A DNA stretch of 34,262 nucleotides from Clostridia bacterium (GTDB lineage Bacteria > Bacillota > Clostridia > Christensenellales > Borkfalkiaceae). Below are positions 13,867-34,262 of this stretch, piece after piece. The DNA lies in assembly GCA_017415505.1 (NCBI GenBank), contig JAFQGG010000049.1, positions 1-34,262 on the forward strand, read 5' to 3'. A program made the translations under genes and the position numbers. A model generated the notes under the pieces. The model was not told where the DNA came from and did no database searches. It saw nothing but the letters and a program-made list of their open reading frames with translations. How positions within the stretch are numbered: position 1 is the stretch's first letter; the number at the start of each line of letters is the position of its first letter.

Positions 13867-14811
13867 ATGATAACTCACGGCAATGAAATTAAGTTGTTTT
13901 CCGGTAACTCTAACAGCGATTTGGCAAAGGCGATTGCGAAGAAGCTCAATACCGAGCTCGGCGAAATCGAAGTTACCACCTTTTCCGACGGCGAAATAAA
14001 CGTGCATATCGCGGAAAGCGTCCGCGGTAGAGACGTTTTCATTATCCAATCCACCTGTTCGCCCGTCAACGATAATTTGATGGAACTTCTCATCATGATC
14101 GACGCGGCGAAGCGTGCTTCGGCGGGTCGTATTACGGCGGTTATACCTTACTTTGGTTATGCCCGTCAAGACAGAAAAGCGCGTTCGCGCGATCCCATCA
14201 CGGCAAAACTCGTGGCAAACTTGCTTACGGAAGCGGGCGCAGACCGCGTTTTGACGATGGATTTGCACGCGGATCAAATTCAAGGATTTTTCGATATCCC
14301 CGTGGACAATTTGCTCGGCGGTCCTACGCTTTATAACTATTTTGCAAAGCAAGGGAATATCGACGTCGTCGTCGCGCCCGACCTTGGAAGCGTTAAGCGT
14401 TCGAGAAAGGTTGCGGAGAAGTTCGGCGTACCCCTTGCGATTATCGACAAACGCCGTCCTAAGGCAAACGTTATGGAAGTTATGAGCATTATCGGCGACG
14501 TAAACGGCAAGAGATGCCTTATGATCGACGATATGATCGATACGGCGGGCACGCTTTGCCAAGGCGCGCAAGCGATTAAAGACGCGGGTGCAACGGAAAT
14601 TTACGCGGGCTGTACGCACGCGGTATTGAGCGGTCCTGCAATCGAGAGATTGAAAAACTCCGCGATTACCAAGCTCGTTATGCTCGACACCATTCACCTC
14701 CCCGACGAAAAGAAAATCGACAAGTTCGAAGTTCTTACGGTTGCGGATATCTTCGCGGCGGCGATCGAGAACGTATATCTCGACAAGCCGATGTCGAAAC
14801 TTTACGACTAA
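13867..14811 (+). CDS. prs: Ribose-phosphate pyrophosphokinase
   Basis: A 314-residue PRPP synthetase. It transfers pyrophosphate from ATP to ribose 5-phosphate, feeding purine, pyrimidine, NAD, His and Trp synthesis. Motifs: [16 protein letters not shown], the flexible-loop region [35 protein letters not shown], and the PRPP loop [15 protein letters not shown]. The length is standard. AAGGAAGG precedes ATG 13867. It is followed by a hairpin and then pth, an arrangement common in Firmicutes (prs-pth-mfd). Confidence 0.97.
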
Positions 14812-30590: not shown

Positions 30591-31197
30591 CGTAAACCCT
30601 ACGCGCATGGAGCTTAAAAAGCTAAAAGCACGTCTTTCGACGGCGGTGCGCGGGCATAAGTTGTTGAAAGATAAATCGGACGAAATGGTGCGGAGATTCA
30701 CCGTGATTTTGCGCGAGGCGAAAAGCTTGCGCGAAGAGGTGGAGAAAGAACTTTCCGAGGTCTTGCGCGCCTTTTCGATTGCGCGGTCCGTAACCCCCTC
30801 GTTCGAGGCGGAAACGGCGTTCGCGATGCCTTCCGTTGCGGTGACGGCGGAGTGCAAGACGGAAAGCGTAATGGGCGTGGACGTGCCGAAAGTCACGCTT
30901 TCGAGCGAGAAACGCGCGGACGGCTTGCCGTACGCGTATTCGGAAATCACGGGCGAGGCGGATTATTCGGTGCAAAAGGCGTCCGACCTGTTGCCGAAAA
31001 TGGTGGCTTTGGCACAAACGGAAAAAACGGTGCGAATGCTCGCCGAGGAAATCGAACGGAATAAACGGCGTGTAAACGCGCTCGAATACGTTATGATTCC
31101 GCAATTGGAAGAAACGATTAAGTATATCAAGGATAAACTTGACGAAAACGAAAGAGCGGCGGTCGTACGACTCATGAAAGTAAAGAGTAAAGCGTAA
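30577..31197 (+). CDS. ntpD: V-type ATP synthase subunit D (central shaft)
   Basis: A 206-residue protein with N- and C-terminal long helices forming the rotor shaft inside the A3B3 head. The N-terminal [33 protein letters not shown] and C-terminal [21 protein letters not shown] are family hallmarks. The GAGGAGAACG ribosome binding site lies within ntpB. It is the last gene of the operon and is followed at once by a terminator hairpin. Confidence 0.95.
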
Positions 31198-31200
31198 AAT

Positions 31201-31232
31201 AAAGTCTTCTCGAAACCAATCGAGAAGACTTT
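31201..31232 (+). terminator. V-ATPase operon terminator
   Basis: A perfect 13-bp stem (31201-31213 with 31220-31232), 6-nt loop, starting 3 bp after ntpD. Its T-run is short (TTT then A-rich). Confidence 0.75.
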
Positions 31233-31275
31233 ACAAAAAAAATTAAAAAATAATGAAAAAAGCGATAAAAAATCG

Positions 31276-31304
31276 TTGACAAAAGAAAAGGAAAGGTATA
31301 TAAT
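31276..31304 (+). promoter_or_regulatory. tRNA-Ala promoter
   Basis: TTGACA (31276-31281), 17 bp, TATAAT (31299-31304), 13 bp before the tRNA. Confidence 0.9.
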
Positions 31305-31317
31305 AGTTAATGCTCAT

Positions 31318-31393
31318 GGGGATATGGCTCAGTTGGTAGAGCGCCTCGTTCGCAACGAGGAGGCCAGCGGTTCGAATCCGCTTATCTCCACCA
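31318..31393 (+). tRNA. tRNA-Ala (anticodon CGC), CCA encoded
   Basis: A 76-nt cloverleaf. Acceptor GGGGATA/TATCTCC includes the G3-T70 (G3:U70) alanine identity pair. Anticodon stem CCTCG/CGAGG with loop TTCGCAA gives CGC, reading GCG, a codon heavily used in this genome. Its last 20 bases (31374-31393) recur at 31716-31735 exactly and at 33039-33058 with one change, and its CCACCA plus terminator is copied twice downstream. Confidence 0.95.
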
Positions 31394-31560
31394 CGCAAAG
31401 GACGGCAATAGCCGTCTTTTTTTTGCTTGGTGGAGATAAGTAACGCTCGACCGCTGTATTAACAGCGGTTCGTGTGACGAGCGTCCGAAAAATCAAATAA
31501 GAAACAAGTACGAAACTTGACGGCGAGAGGAAACTCTCGCCGTAGGCGAGAATCCGCGTA
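31391..31560 (+). repeat. tRNA-Ala-derived repeat unit 1
   Basis: Begins with the tRNA CCA and terminator hairpin GACGGC-AATA-GCCGTC plus T8 (31401-31424), then an inverted copy of the tRNA 3' end, TGGTGGAGATAAG (31428-31440), then the hairpin CCGCTG-TATTAA-CAGCGG. Its first 92 bp match unit 2 with one change. The middle is unique, followed by a GGCGAGAG/CTCTCGCC hairpin and GGCGAGAATCCGC. The closing CTTATCTC is missing: the sequence jumps straight into unit 2. Confidence 0.8.
31401..31424 (+). terminator. tRNA-Ala terminator (copied in units 2 and 3)
   Basis: GACGGC-AATA-GCCGTC followed by TTTTTTTT. Identical copies lie at 31571-31594 and 32892-32915. Confidence 0.9.
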
Positions 31561-31735
31561 CCACGCAAAGGACGGCAATAGCCGTCTTTTTTTTGCGTGG
31601 TGGAGATAAGTAACGCTCGACCGCTGTATTAACAGCGGTTCGTGTGACGAGCAAAAACGGGGAAGTAAAAGATAATCACAAACATGGTTGCGAGAGAAGC
31701 CCTCTCCATAGGCGAGAATCCGCTTATCTCCACCA
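31561..31735 (+). repeat. tRNA-Ala-derived repeat unit 2 (complete)
   Basis: 175 bp. It contains the terminator copy (31571-31594), TGGTGGAGATAAG (31598-31610), two hairpins, and ends in GAATCCGCTTATCTCCACCA (31716-31735), an exact 20-bp copy of the tRNA-Ala 3' end. The first and last 13 bases of 31598-31735 are perfect reverse complements, so a transcript would close into a roughly 138-nt structured RNA with a CCACCA end. It is about 90% identical to unit 3. Confidence 0.8.
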
Positions 31736-31776
31736 AAAATGACCTAAAACGAACCGCTTCGTTTTAGGTCATTTTT
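31735..31776 (+). terminator. Strong terminator hairpin after unit 2
   Basis: An 18-bp perfect stem (31736-31753 with 31758-31775) and CCGC loop, ending in a T-run, starting at the last base of the unit's CCACCA. A related hairpin follows unit 3. Confidence 0.85.
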
Positions 31777-32043
31777 ATTCAAGCCAAAAGGCTTGGTATG
31801 GTATCACGGCTTGCCGTGTATGTCCTCGCCGTAAGACGTATGCCATTTTTTCGGCTTGATTACATACAATTAAAATTGATTACATTCTGCTATTGCAAAT
31901 TCCATACACCGCCTTGGCGGTGATTTTTATTTTTGTGTAATACAACGGCACACCGCAGTACCATTTTTAAGTTTTTATTTCCTAAAAGTAACAACGTAAC
32001 AAGCGAAAGTAACAATAAAATTATAGATTTTTTCTTTGTAATA
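31777..32043. other. Hairpin-rich intergenic sequence before the HTH gene
   Basis: No gene is seen. It holds small hairpins AAGCC-AAAA-GGCTT and CACGGC-TT-GCCGTG, a direct repeat TTGATTACAT (31856-31865 and 31876-31885, spaced 20 bp), and a terminator-like hairpin CACCGC-CTTG-GCGGTG followed by a T-rich run (31907-31934). AT content rises sharply toward the HTH gene. Confidence 0.5.
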
Positions 32044-32052
32044 TGCTATAAT
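32044..32052 (+). promoter_or_regulatory. Extended -10 promoter of the HTH gene
   Basis: TGCTATAAT is an extended -10 element. The -35 region is poor (TAGATT at 17 bp). TTGAGGA serves as the ribosome binding site before ATG 32086. Confidence 0.6.
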
Positions 32053-32085
32053 ATTTGTATCAAAATAATCTCTTTGAGGATAATT

Positions 32086-32844
32086 ATGGAGTTTAAGGAT
32101 AGATTAAAAAAACTTCGAATAGAAAAACACGTATCACAACAAGAATTAGCAAATTCAATATATGTTAGTCGAAGTGCAATAGCAAAATGGGAAAACGGTC
32201 TTGGGTTACCAAATGAAACATCATACAAAGCATTGCTTACATTTTTTAATGTTTCAAGAGAGGAATTTCCATTGAATGAAGAAACAGAAAATATTTCTAT
32301 TGTAAAAAATAAAAAAATACGTAATTTATGGACAACTATTATTAGTTTGTTGTCGCTTGTGATAATAATTCTTTTTTTAACTTTTGTCAATGCTTTTTCA
32401 AATGCCTATGGCTTTACCTCTAAAATGGCGGTTGGCAAAATATGGGCAAATAATAAAATAATTAAAACGTCGGAATATGATTTCTATTATGATACGTTTG
32501 GTGGAGTTGATGATATAAAAGTTATAAATTCATTTTGCGTAGTGGAAAATAAATTGATTGGTTATCAGAAAATTAACGATATTGAAAATTATAAAAAAAC
32601 TGCGTGCGACCACGCAGGTAAGGTCTTAGGATATATTTATTCGTTTAAAGGTGAAAAATGTTATTATCATTTCTTTAAATCTGTATATCAAAATAATCAA
32701 GGTGAAATAGGAGTAACAATCAATTTATTAAATGAAATCACAATTAAAGAAGATACTATATCGGTTTTATATAATAGCTATTTTGAAACGCCATTTGAAT
32801 TAAAGGAATTTTATGCAAATGGTAATCACTATATAGTAGAATAG
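32086..32844 (+). CDS. XRE-type HTH protein with one membrane segment
   Basis: A 252-residue protein. A Cro/C1-type helix-turn-helix covers residues 6-60 (LRIEKHVSQQELANSIYVSR, SAIAKWENG). A single membrane helix follows at about 82-104. The C-terminal 145 residues are probably extracytoplasmic, rich in Tyr, Asn and Lys, and match no family I recognise. This layout suggests a membrane-tethered regulator that senses an outside signal. The gene is far more AT-rich than the backbone, lies between two copies of the tRNA-Ala-derived repeat, and has its own extended -10 promoter, all pointing to acquired cargo. A longer frame from 31933 has no ribosome binding site and crosses the promoter. Confidence 0.8.
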   Translation: MEFKDRLKKLRIEKHVSQQELANSIYVSRSAIAKWENGLGLPNETSYKALLTFFNVSREEFPLNEETENISIVKNKKIRNLWTTIISLLSLVIIILFLTFVNAFSNAYGFTSKMAVGKIWANNKIIKTSEYDFYYDTFGGVDDIKVINSFCVVENKLIGYQKINDIENYKKTACDHAGKVLGYIYSFKGEKCYYHFFKSVYQNNQGEIGVTINLLNEITIKEDTISVLYNSYFETPFELKEFYANGNHYIVE

Positions 32845-32855
32845 GAGAAATGGCG

Positions 32856-32876
32856 GTTCGATTTAGGTTGCTCTTA
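32856..32876. repeat. Stray arm of the unit-terminator hairpin
   Basis: GGTTCGATTTAGGTT (32856-32870) is the exact reverse complement of 33065-33079, the left arm of the hairpin that follows unit 3, and the match continues imperfectly into CTCTT. Unit 3 is therefore bracketed by an inverted repeat. It may be the remaining right arm of an older unit's hairpin, or a decayed tRNA T-arm, since GCGGTTCGA is also shared with tRNA-Ala. Confidence 0.5.
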
Positions 32877-33058
32877 CTCCACCACGCAAAGGACGGCAAT
32901 AGCCGTCTTTTTTTTGCGTGGTGGAGATAAGTAACGCACGAACCACTGTATTAACAGCGGTTCGTGTGAACGAGCAAAAACAGGGAAGTAAAAGATAATC
33001 ACAAACATGGTTGCGAGAGAAGCTCTCGCCGTAGGCGAGAATCCGTTTATCTCCACCA
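32877..33058 (+). repeat. tRNA-Ala-derived repeat unit 3
   Basis: Begins CTCCACCACGCAAAGG exactly like the end of tRNA-Ala and its flank. It contains the terminator copy (32892-32915), TGGTGGAGATAAG (32919-32931), a stem CACGAACCACTG/CAGCGGTTCGTG around TATTAA, then the GCGAGAG/CTCTCGC hairpin, and ends GAATCCGTTTATCTCCACCA (33039-33058), one base different from the tRNA 3' end. Changes in the first hairpin extend its stem relative to units 1-2, hinting that structure is retained. Confidence 0.8.
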
Positions 33059-33109
33059 AGAGAAACCTAAATCGAACCACTTATGTTCGCGTTGGGTTTC
33101 TCTTTTTTT
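33059..33109 (+). terminator. Terminator hairpin after unit 3
   Basis: AGAGAAACC (33059-33067) pairs with GGTTTCTCT (33095-33103) with further pairing inside, then T7. It starts right after CCACCA, as in unit 2, and its inner sequence (CCTAAA-CGAACC-CTT) is related to that hairpin. Confidence 0.8.
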
Positions 33110-33136
33110 ATACATAAATACAAAATCGTTTTTAGG

Positions 33137-33168
33137 GCGTTTCTTTGGGCTAAGGAAACGCTTTTAAT
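33137..33168 (+). terminator. Weak terminator-like hairpin
   Basis: GCGTTTC (33137-33143) pairs with GAAACGC (33155-33161), then TTTTAATT. No gene on the plus strand ends nearby. Confidence 0.4.
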
Positions 33169-33231
33169 TATGCTTTGAATAAATCCCTGCCCTTATGCAA
33201 TTAAGCTAAAAACGGCGGTTTATGCCGCGAA

Positions 33232-33375
33232 AGGCTCTTGACAAGAGAAAGGAATGTGGTAGGCTATTTGCCACGGCAAGAAAAAAAGCCCCTTGGGGCT
33301 GTGGTGTTTGGCGGTATTGCCTTACAACCACGTTCCTAAGAGGCTCTTGTCAAGAGTACCGTGGAATAAATAGCC
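33232..33375. repeat. Nested direct and inverted repeats next to the serine recombinase
   Basis: AGGCTCTTGACAAGAG (33232-33247) and AGGCTCTTGTCAAGAG (33341-33356) form a direct repeat with one change, and each contains a palindrome. Inside, GGAATGTGGT (33251-33260) and ACCACGTTCC (33327-33336) are inverted with one mismatch. GGCTATTT...CCACGG near 33262 recurs inverted near 33359-33375. AGCCCC-TT-GGGGCT sits at the centre. This could be a recombination or resolution site for the recombinase, whose stop codon lies 16 bp away. No gene is present. Confidence 0.55.
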
Positions 33376-33391
33376 GTTTTCTACTTGGCTG

Positions 33392-34262
33392 TTATACTCG
33401 AATTTCTATTTTGATTTCAAATTTCTTCATATCCCGTCTTTGACGGACTTTATAAGCAAATTTAAGCGTTTTATGATAAAAAGAAAAGCCCTGACTTTCG
33501 TCAGGACTAATCGTTGTCGGGGTGTTGTATTTAATGACGATTTCATCATCATATACTAAAATTTCTTTCACAAGATAGTTTATAAGCATTTGCGGTTCAA
33601 GCCGTAACGCCTGTTCGTAAAATTCTCGGATTTCCTTTTCAGATAATACAACTGCCGTTTTACTTTTTTTGATTAAGATTTCTTTTTCAAGATTGGCTTG
33701 CTGTTCTTCCAAATCGTGTAAACGCTTATTTGTCGTATTAGAGAAGATACCGTTTTCAATGGCGTTCATTATATTTTGCAACGCCGTATCAACTTGCCGT
33801 TTCGTTTGTAAAAGATTGTTTAAAGCGTTGTTTTCTTTGTTCAGTTTCATCTGCAAAGCCATTAAACCCTGCACGATTACGTTGACATTGTTTTTGTCGT
33901 TGAGTTGATTTGTAATTTCATCAAGCACAATTCGTTCAAGTAAATCCTTTTGAATAGCTTCTTTATGGCATTTTGTACCGTGTTTTCTTCCCCAACATTT
34001 GTAATAATATTTGCGCTCGCCGTTACGTGCTGTTCCGTTTTCGGCGTTCATAGATAAACCGCAATATCCGCATTTTAATTTGCCTTTTAATAAGTATTCG
34101 ATTTTTACACTTGTTTTACCGTATTTATTCATATCAATTTTTCCTTTAACTTTATCAAAAATTTCTTGTGGTACTATTCTTGGAAAGGTATTCTCGAAAA
34201 CTTGTTCGCCGTGGCGGTAGATTCCCGAATATCTTTCATTGCCTAAAATTTTATAAACGGTA
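33392..34262 (-). CDS. Large serine recombinase, C-terminal part (cut by window edge)
   Basis: About 290 residues of an open frame that continues past the right edge; the frame is open from 34261 (VYKILGNERYSGIYRHGE) without a stop. That stretch plus NTFPRIVPQEIFDKV matches the Recombinase domain. A zinc ribbon follows (LKCGYCGLSM ... YYKCWGRKHGTKCH), then a coiled coil rich in Leu, Asn and Lys, and a basic C terminus. The catalytic serine domain would lie outside the window. Such enzymes integrate or excise clostridial transposons, ICEs and prophages. The gene is more AT-rich than the backbone. It is tied by position to the repeats at 33232-33375; a link to the tRNA-Ala units is inference. 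Confidence 0.93.
   Translation of the reverse strand, partial: TVYKILGNERYSGIYRHGEQVFENTFPRIVPQEIFDKVKGKIDMNKYGKTSVKIEYLLKGKLKCGYCGLSMNAENGTARNGERKYYYKCWGRKHGTKCHKEAIQKDLLERIVLDEITNQLNDKNNVNVIVQGLMALQMKLNKENNALNNLLQTKRQVDTALQNIMNAIENGIFSNTTNKRLHDLEEQQANLEKEILIKKSKTAVVLSEKEIREFYEQALRLEPQMLINYLVKEILVYDDEIVIKYNTPTTISPDESQGFSFYHKTLKFAYKVRQRRDMKKFEIKIEIRV

Follow-up and report, generated by a model that had tools for sequence, protein, structure and literature searches.

Small gene cassettes and a serine-recombinase element that appear to dock at tRNA CCA ends and tRNA-linked repeats in Clostridia

Introduction

Staphylococcal cassette chromosome (SCC) elements are inserted by the large serine recombinase Ccr at the 3' end of a conserved gene, which is restored, and they leave a site at which further elements can stack. 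Integron cassettes end in attC sites with RYYYAAC and GTTRRRY cores. Here we describe an array from Clostridia whose parts appear, from their sequence, to resemble these and other known families, while their combination does not. It lies in a stretch of 34,262 nucleotides, the window, which is one whole contig (G000:C47; JAFQGG010000049.1 of assembly GCA_017415505.1) of a Borkfalkiaceae genome. In order, the array consists of a tRNA-Ala(CGC) gene, unit 1, unit 2, a 1149-bp cassette with a helix-turn-helix (HTH) gene, unit 3 and a serine-recombinase element (Table 1). The array is two things stacked, tRNA-linked repeats and a gene cassette. It probably represents a system of two layers, in which such repeats are joined by a serine-recombinase element and non-autonomous cassettes that would integrate and stack at tRNA CCA tails.

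The locus shares with SCC a large serine recombinase, apparent insertion at the very 3' end of a conserved gene, restoration of that gene and stacking. It differs in its target, which is the CCA tail of several tRNA and tmRNA genes instead of one protein gene (the targets found were tRNA and tmRNA genes and repeat ends, and not the 3' end of rlmH), in the size of its cassettes, mostly 0.5–1.7 kb, and in that the insert adds a terminator-like hairpin. With integrons it shares small, apparently mobile cassettes, mostly of one or two genes, arrayed at fixed kinds of site. In contrast to integrons, the cassette ends are common to serine-recombinase elements, there is no attC core (by eye, the listed right ends read like GGTTC...CTCCACCA) and no fixed integrase platform, and any tRNA end reading CACCA seems usable.

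Islands in tRNA genes, as the available part of the Islander paper presents them, likewise insert at the 3' end of tRNA or tmRNA genes and leave the tRNA functional, but they do so with tyrosine integrases (PMC4383910). Here a serine recombinase, and not a tyrosine integrase, stands beside all five left ends that we aligned. The same part of that paper states that serine recombinases were, as of 2014, not known to target tRNA genes (PMC4383910), and according to the available part of a 2026 paper 56.6% of islands have tRNA/tmRNA or intergenic sites, a figure not divided there by recombinase family (PMC12884075). Integrative and mobilizable elements (IMEs) and cis-mobilizable elements (CIMEs), in the sections available of PMC5704250, resemble the present case in that an autonomous element coexists with decayed relatives that keep attL and attR, and in stacking by accretion. 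They differ in that, as described there, IMEs with a serine recombinase disrupt dispensable protein genes, and in that the non-autonomous forms of the present case are small, carry genes and are shared between species. No serine-recombinase cassette system at tRNA ends was described in the open-licence literature searched, although a later report may exist.

The units recall a different literature. According to the available sections of PMC8144298, tRNA-linked repeats of E. coli were described in 1978 and their function is mostly not known; 22 of them lie at ten loci, each with 18–19 bp of the upstream gene at its end, and three at rRNA operons are transcribed through terminator read-through. 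For the 178-bp tyrT repeats and RtT RNA these sections cite Egan & Landy (1978) and Rudd (1999). Like our units, the tyrT repeats are tandem, measure about 170–180 bp and lie directly after the tRNA. Each of them ends in the 3' end of that tRNA, a sequence that our units match to varying degrees. RtT also shows the same order of parts: a 5' side that is the reverse complement of the acceptor, GGTTCG, a foldable insert containing a hairpin with a 3-nt loop, and a 3' part made of the T-stem and acceptor 3' strand (AATCC, acceptor, CCACCA). It comes from another phylum; the Clostridia units usually own a terminator, and serine-recombinase elements appear to dock at them.

Results

A cassette with ends of its own among tRNA-linked repeats

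An initial annotation, made from the DNA letters, had described three units of about 170–180 bp after tRNA-Ala, and direct reading together with a repeat search recovered all three. As it had said, each opens with a terminator after the tRNA CCA (identical 10-bp stems and a T run, at 31397, 31567 and 32888), and units 2 and 3 end in the 20-bp tRNA 3' end: GAATCCGCTTATCTCCACCA occurs at 31374 in the tRNA, at 31716 in unit 2 and, with one change, at 33039 in unit 3. Unit 1 ends in the degenerate form GAATCCGCGTACCA. The block common to units 1 and 2, put at 92 bp, measures 93 nt with one mismatch (repeat D1, 99%), and the 13-bp inverted ends were found as TGGTGGAGATAAG and CTTATCTCCACCA. The AT-rich regulatory gene between units 2 and 3 is an HTH gene, and the serine recombinase noted after the array is a PF13408 gene on the minus strand. 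Array junctions read CCACCA, except for TACCA after unit 1.

Table 1. Features of the array in the window. R1 is the covariance model of the units; units 2 and 3 belonged to its training set, and their R1 bits are training scores.
Feature	Position	Strand	Evidence
tRNA-Ala(CGC)	31318..31393	+	ARAGORN; Rfam tRNA 73.4 bits; CTCCACCA end = docking site
Unit 1 (tRNA-linked repeat, degenerate 3' end)	31394..31563 (170 bp)	+	Repeats; R1 82.5 bits at 31430-31562
Unit 2 (exact 20-nt tRNA 3' end)	31564..31735 (172 bp)	+	Repeats; R1 123.8 bits at 31600-31734
Gene cassette, 1149 bp	31736..32884	+	Left flank CTCCACCA; right end 32855-32884; G+C 0.30
Cassette left arm in 19-bp perfect hairpin	31735..31776	+	ACCTAAAACGAACC, inverse of right end; inverted repeat I5
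Cassette HTH_3 gene, 252 aa, with a further region of unassigned kind	32086..32844	+	Pfam PF01381, 3.3e-12
Cassette right end GGTTCGATTTAGGTTGCTCTTACTCCACCA	32855..32884	+	Motif in 22/57 genomes, reversed control 0
Unit 3	32885..33058 (174 bp)	+	Repeats; R1 138.7 bits at 32921-33057
Serine-recombinase element, start only, contig ends inside	33059..34262	.	Left arm aligned with four other elements
Element left arm AGAGAAACCTAAATCGAACC (33059-33078) and terminator-like hairpin	33059..33104	+	Inverted repeats I2, I8
Large serine recombinase, C-terminal 289 aa	33392..34261	-	PF13408, 3.5e-13

The cargo between units 2 and 3 was thus where the annotation had placed it; its own terminal motifs had gone undescribed. 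In the window cassette the left arm pairs at 13 of 15 positions with the right end, and the boundary, which falls within an A run, is accurate to ±1–2 nt. Deleting the cassette in silico restores CTCCACCA joined to CGCAAAGG, as at the tRNA/unit 1 junction, the only empty form available.

We searched a genus set of 57 genomes, the source genome included. The right end, written as the degenerate 30-mer GGTTC-N17-CTCCACCA, was found in 22 of them at three mismatches or fewer (19 at 0–1), and the reversed pattern, as control, in none of the 57. Exact matches occurred in 22 stretches of genome_contigs and in none of viral_contigs; a viral-contig match to an 18-mer (L033) looks like chance and was discarded. 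The relatives with cassette ends are metagenome-assembled genomes labelled Clostridia bacterium or Clostridiales bacterium, with ruminant gut (deer, sheep, goat) as the source wherever one is stated. The motif closes with CTCCACCA or a close variant of it, and in most cases a local terminator-like hairpin comes next. Most left ends carry the inverse of the right end, usually within a terminator-like hairpin.

The fetched loci held 32 distinct right ends, and 18 cassettes of 0.5–6.0 kb could be delimited by hand. Nine stand directly after a tRNA or tmRNA gene, five after unit ends (among them that of G005, which has no clear left edge) and four after another element; docking is exactly behind the CCA of tRNA-Ala(CGC), tRNA-Ala(GGC), tmRNA, unit ends or other elements. 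With the G005 cassette omitted, arm pairing in the other 17 averages 10.9 of 15 positions, compared with 7.0 for shuffled ends (shuffle maximum 7.8). The cassettes encode HTH proteins, a PHP-domain protein, a 23S rRNA-IVP-like protein, a GrpB protein and many products of no assigned kind. Their G+C is 0.30–0.36 in 13 of the 14 that were measured (out of the 18) and below that of the flanks in 12 of the 14.

The same cassette recurs at different sites. One that encodes a 93-aa protein is present in six genomes, after tRNA-Ala(GGC), tRNA-Ala(CGC), tmRNA or a recombinase element. This cassette, 562 bp long, is 99.5% identical between two species, following a recombinase element in G043 and tmRNA in G051, while the flanks of the two copies align at 58–60%, as in other unrelated pairs; its presence at unrelated sites in two species counts, at the sequence level, for mobility. 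The tRNA-Ala(CGC) gene itself could be located in 30 of the 57 genomes: 16 have a unit directly behind it, one a truncated unit, five a cassette or terminal repeat and eight neither. Different cargo at tRNA-Ala in other genomes, which the annotation had suggested looking for, was found, and the observation that would have spoken for immobility, the same cargo in all strains, was sought and not made, as cargo differs between genomes. The putative mobility signals are the cassettes' own ends, GGTTC...CTCCACCA with its inverted partner, and not the unit ends. Cassettes also sit directly at tRNA and tmRNA genes, with no unit between the two.

Two further observations concern cassette sequence. In a genome of another genus of the family (G089, L228, 288-1387), a unit is followed by the arm AGAGAAACCTAAATCGAACC and a second unit by AAAAATGACCTAAAACGAACCGCTT, the same start as that of the window cassette; these arms behind units imply that cassettes reach beyond the genus. 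Past the left hairpin, the cassettes of G000:C7, G030, G043, G047 and G050 have a ATGTAATC-rich block (CAAGCCGAAAGGCTTGGTATGTAATCGCCG...); a similar one lies at 31777-31870 of the window, and the block also accompanies other genes.

The serine-recombinase elements

The window recombinase reads towards the array; its 5' part is missing because the window is a whole contig and the gene runs past the contig end. It is 50–60% identical to recombinases of G022, G025, G027, G031 and G039 (over 87–290 aa). Five recombinase genes, that of the window included, share a conserved block behind the stop codon, the other four being 50–55% identical to the window part. All five face a cassette-type left arm that lies directly after a CCA, with the stop codon about 330 bp inside. 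The sites differ: tRNA-Ala(GGC) in G039, tRNA-Glu in G027, tRNA-Leu in G025, a tmRNA-like end in G022 and unit 3 in the window. The G022 end is identical to the G030 tmRNA at 101 of 120 positions; ARAGORN made no call there.

Two of these loci show what may lie beyond. In G022 the tmRNA-like end is followed by about 11.2 kb with the recombinase, the next recognised right end and then a 517-bp cassette; in G039 the tRNA is followed by about 9.5 kb with the recombinase, the next recognised right end and then a 778-bp cassette. The G022 and G043 recombinases have Resolvase, Recombinase and zinc-ribbon domains. A Rep of the ORF2/G2P type (PF23343) lies beside the G022 recombinase, with similar proteins in G039, G031 and G027. 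The stretch behind the G022 recombinase (G022:C8; L161:7835-11956) encodes a type II methyltransferase together with an AlwI-like endonuclease, a restriction-modification pair that raises the possibility of the larger elements being defence islands.

There is a second recombinase lineage, whose in-frame end is GGTTCGGAT...CACCA. In its strict form this pattern has six matches across the 57 genomes, of which three lie at recombinase ends; in G054, which belongs to this lineage, the other end lies after tRNA-Leu(AAG) and the element measures about 8.8 kb. The idea that some elements are inserted in reverse was dropped, as the recombinase genes of G051 and G035 lie at the left end and read towards the tRNA side. 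Recombinase matches, counted with a query of the second lineage, occur in 27 of the 57 genomes, cassettes in 22 and both in 14; the genomes are often incomplete.

Window positions 33222-33370, which lie between the stop codon of the recombinase and the left end, hold a highly conserved block containing CTCTTGACARGAG and CTCTTGTCAAGAG, present also in G022, G025, G027 and G039. It may be a replication origin or control site.

The tRNA-linked repeats

Each unit consists of a terminator and then about 136 nt of foldable sequence. The latter opens with a complement of the acceptor, which is long in the window and short in some relatives. It continues with hairpin P2, whose right arm is the tRNA T-stem including GGTTCG, and an insert of about 75 nt with hairpins P3 and P4, and closes with the remaining half of the T-arm and the acceptor up to its CCA. 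Units 1–3 fold better than all 200 dinucleotide shuffles of each (z -5.2, -4.9 and -6.4), and between 31200 and 33420, both strands taken together, there are 11 terminator-like sites, compared with 2.0 (sd 1.6) in shuffles.

The covariance model R1 was built from 11 units, ten after tRNA-Ala and one after tRNA-Arg. At E <= 0.01 it has matches in 50 of the 57 genus genomes, with 0 to 19 per genome, and at E <= 0.001 in 42 of 201 genomes of the family, own genus included, covering 7 of 18 genera. Weak R1 matches, such as that at window positions 13990-14105, were ignored. Units are often tandem, with a spacing of about 145–180 bp; G006:C7 has four copies at one locus, and G011:C45 and the window three each, within the one to five of RtT. 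Across 60 fetched loci, picked largely via earlier matches and hence no random sample, 96 R1 matches were reduced to 83 distinct ones by dropping six second views of one place, six antisense matches and one that was cut off. A tRNA or tmRNA gene lies within 900 nt upstream of 70 of the 83, and several of the remaining 13 sit at contig ends. Random dispersal, the outcome that would have undone the annotation's idea of a tRNA-based array, is not what was seen: the units are tied to tRNA genes. The first unit usually begins 23–42 nt past the tRNA.

At the loci examined, units follow 11 kinds of tRNA as well as tmRNA. The 70 upstream genes are Ala(CGC) for 19 units, Val(GAC) for 12, Ser(GCT) for 10, Arg(CCG) for 7, Tyr(GTA), Ser(TGA) and Lys(CTT) for 5 each, Gln(CTG) for 3, and Ser(GGA), Phe(GAA), Pro(CGG) and tmRNA for 1 each. 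The 3' 20 nt of a unit match its own tRNA at a mean of 14.3 of 20 positions and other tRNAs at 10.3 (20 of 20 for window unit 2 and tRNA-Ala(CGC)), and the 8-nt T-stem segment, which is partly universal in tRNAs, matches its own at 7.73 of 8 versus 5.71. Pairing within P2, measured on 36 distinct arm sets after excluding the 15 of 83 units that lack the GTTC anchor, averages 4.03 of 5 pairs, compared with 2.92 when the left arm is taken from a unit of another tRNA, and none of 2000 permutations was as high as 4.03; all five pairs form in 13 of the 36 sets, with G-U pairs counted. On an alignment that had not been fitted to the structure, 87.8% of cells are paired and covariation exceeds that of all 500 shuffles and all slides.

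The units are tRNA-linked repeats by their anatomy alone; homology of sequence to E. coli RtT is unsupported. The Rfam RtT model (RF00391) scored above its cut-off in none of the 57 genomes, with one weak match in G025 (E 0.0125) and a positive E. coli control, and R1 in turn recovered no E. coli repeats up to E 10. A proposed homology of the unit insert to RtT was abandoned: for the 64 of 83 inserts of usable length, 47 of 200 shuffled RtT sequences align as well. The units most likely act as RNA that would arise by terminator read-through and be trimmed at the tRNA-like CCA end. Being a repeat family at many tRNA genes, mostly free of cargo, they do not look like the tandem att scars that the annotation had offered as an alternative origin. 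Its picture of a landing array holds insofar as CCA ends bound the incoming cargo, and fails for the units, which do not look like products of insertion. In one tRNA-Ser unit (L225, G008:C15, 833-1022), cassette-like sequence starts inside the unit, past its GAGGAGC motif, so that cargo may in some cases lie within a unit instead of behind it.

Other features of the window

A permissive Rfam scan of 31000-34262 gave, besides the tRNA, nine matches, every one under its gathering score; a permuted tmRNA among the candidates reached 21 bits, where 47 are needed, and was rejected. One PF00589 protein is encoded on this contig, about 30 kb from the array, at 477-1682, and was recognised with the general PF00589 profile, which is not specific to IntI. 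This tyrosine integrase gene, with SAM-like N-terminal domains, stops about 70 bp from the 3' end of tRNA-Ser(TGA) (1749-1837) on the opposite strand, and is probably the end of another tRNA-targeted element. Elsewhere in the genome (G000:C12:87995-90484, minus strand) three tyrosine recombinase genes lie in tandem, like a recombinase trio.

Discussion

The boundaries, the shared ends, the CCA targets, the presence of the recombinase within elements of this kind, the differing cargo and the occurrence of one cassette at unrelated sites are directly supported. For the two-layer system that we consider probable, the following course can be proposed. The first layer would comprise units behind many tRNA genes, with arms resembling the T-stem and 3' end of the tRNA concerned. 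In the second, a large-serine-recombinase element would insert at the CCA with which tRNA and tmRNA genes end, and also at its copies within the repeats; in four relatives a rolling-circle-type Rep lies beside the recombinase. Cassettes of one to a few genes with the same ends would borrow the recombinase of the element in trans. In a circular form, the ends would join as an imperfect palindrome of about 50 bp, GGTTCRAYTTASGTT...CTCCACCA joined to ...AACCTAARTYGAACC, which we take as the putative attP; attP sites of serine recombinases have a palindromic layout of about 50 bp. Crossover would fall inside CACCA, and recombination with the tRNA end would preserve the tRNA. Behind it, the insert's left arm would build a new terminator-like hairpin and so restore termination, and the right end would bring a fresh CCACCA, so that elements could stack.

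Several results weigh against this proposal. Arm pairing lies above the shuffles in 12 of the 17 cassettes, but the other five score 5–8, no better than shuffled ends allow; copies of one cassette family differ in their left hairpin, and the G014 cassette is not AT-rich (G+C 0.45). Joined flanks were used to look for a clean empty site in other species, and none was found, because the flanks are too diverged. The window recombinase lacks the catalytic part owing to the contig end, and its zinc ribbon alone is visible. Recombinase and cassettes co-occur weakly, the recombinase being found in 14 of 22 cassette-positive genomes and 13 of 35 others (one-sided Fisher 0.046), and the genome encodes five tyrosine recombinases (PF00589), one of them on the window contig next to tRNA-Ser. 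For the repeats, the own tRNA is strictly the best match at the 3' end in just 45 of 70 units, and the count of pair types does not exceed chance (328 of 500 shuffles).

Among other explanations, the one that survives best, although we regard it as somewhat unlikely, is that the units are functionless neutral or selfish tandem repeats, copied from the tRNA 3' end by template switching or gene conversion, and that cassettes land on whatever CCA is available. The highly variable copy number (0 to 19 matches per genome), the degenerate ends of unit 1 and many others, and the eight of 30 tRNA-Ala(CGC) loci without unit or cassette would fit such an origin; conservation of insert and hairpins across tRNAs with compensating changes, and the same plan in E. 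coli, would not. We find it unlikely that the repeats are DNA docking or decoy sites that divert integrating elements from tRNA genes and are not kept as RNA. Units copy the docking sequence precisely, and five of the 18 delimited cassettes and the window recombinase element sit at unit ends, yet nine of the 18 are directly at tRNA or tmRNA genes, units accompany Lys, Val and Gln tRNAs at which no cassette was seen in our limited sample, and a CCA decoy needs neither a conserved insert nor hairpins containing G-U pairs nor covariation.

A third explanation, accretion of tyrosine-integrase islands, concerns the cargo: the CTCCACCA copies would be attL and attR scars and the cassettes decayed islands that kept their ends. 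The five tyrosine recombinases would supply the enzymes, and, as far as the available parts of the sources go, such integrases commonly use tRNA 3' ends (PMC4383910) and decayed, stacking elements with att sites are known as CIMEs (PMC5704250). We nevertheless judge it improbable, as the gene next to the aligned left ends encodes a serine recombinase in all five cases, the cassette ends are long and defined (30 nt and an inverted partner) and common to serine-recombinase elements, and the same compact cassette is found nearly unchanged in different species. Integron-type cassettes, with the units as attC-like sites moved by an IntI-type integrase, would account for single-gene cassettes arrayed in one orientation and for foldable units of attC-like length, but this idea was dropped as highly implausible, since inspection found no attC core on the cassette ends, most units have no cassette attached, and the elements that share the cassette ends encode a serine recombinase.

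Returning to the two-layer system, the cassettes and a parent recombinase element at tRNA CCA tails look, to judge from the sequences compared, like a gene-capture platform. Only tentatively would we extend the analogy to integrons, with gene capture running on a large serine recombinase, attachment at the CCA tail, a terminator in the attachment arm and repeats that multiply the sites. With attachment at the universal CCA tail that tRNA and tmRNA genes share, a genome would offer dozens of possible docking sites, and with a terminator woven into the attachment arm, the host tRNA would stay correctly ended. If this is true, serine recombinases would act on a site present in many copies in every bacterium, which would be relevant to the insertion of genes into genomes, and the cassettes would constitute an integron-like route for the movement of single genes in gut Clostridia. 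The repeats carry the puzzle of tRNA-linked repeats into a distant phylum and into many tRNA contexts, and their origin and function thereby become comparable and testable.

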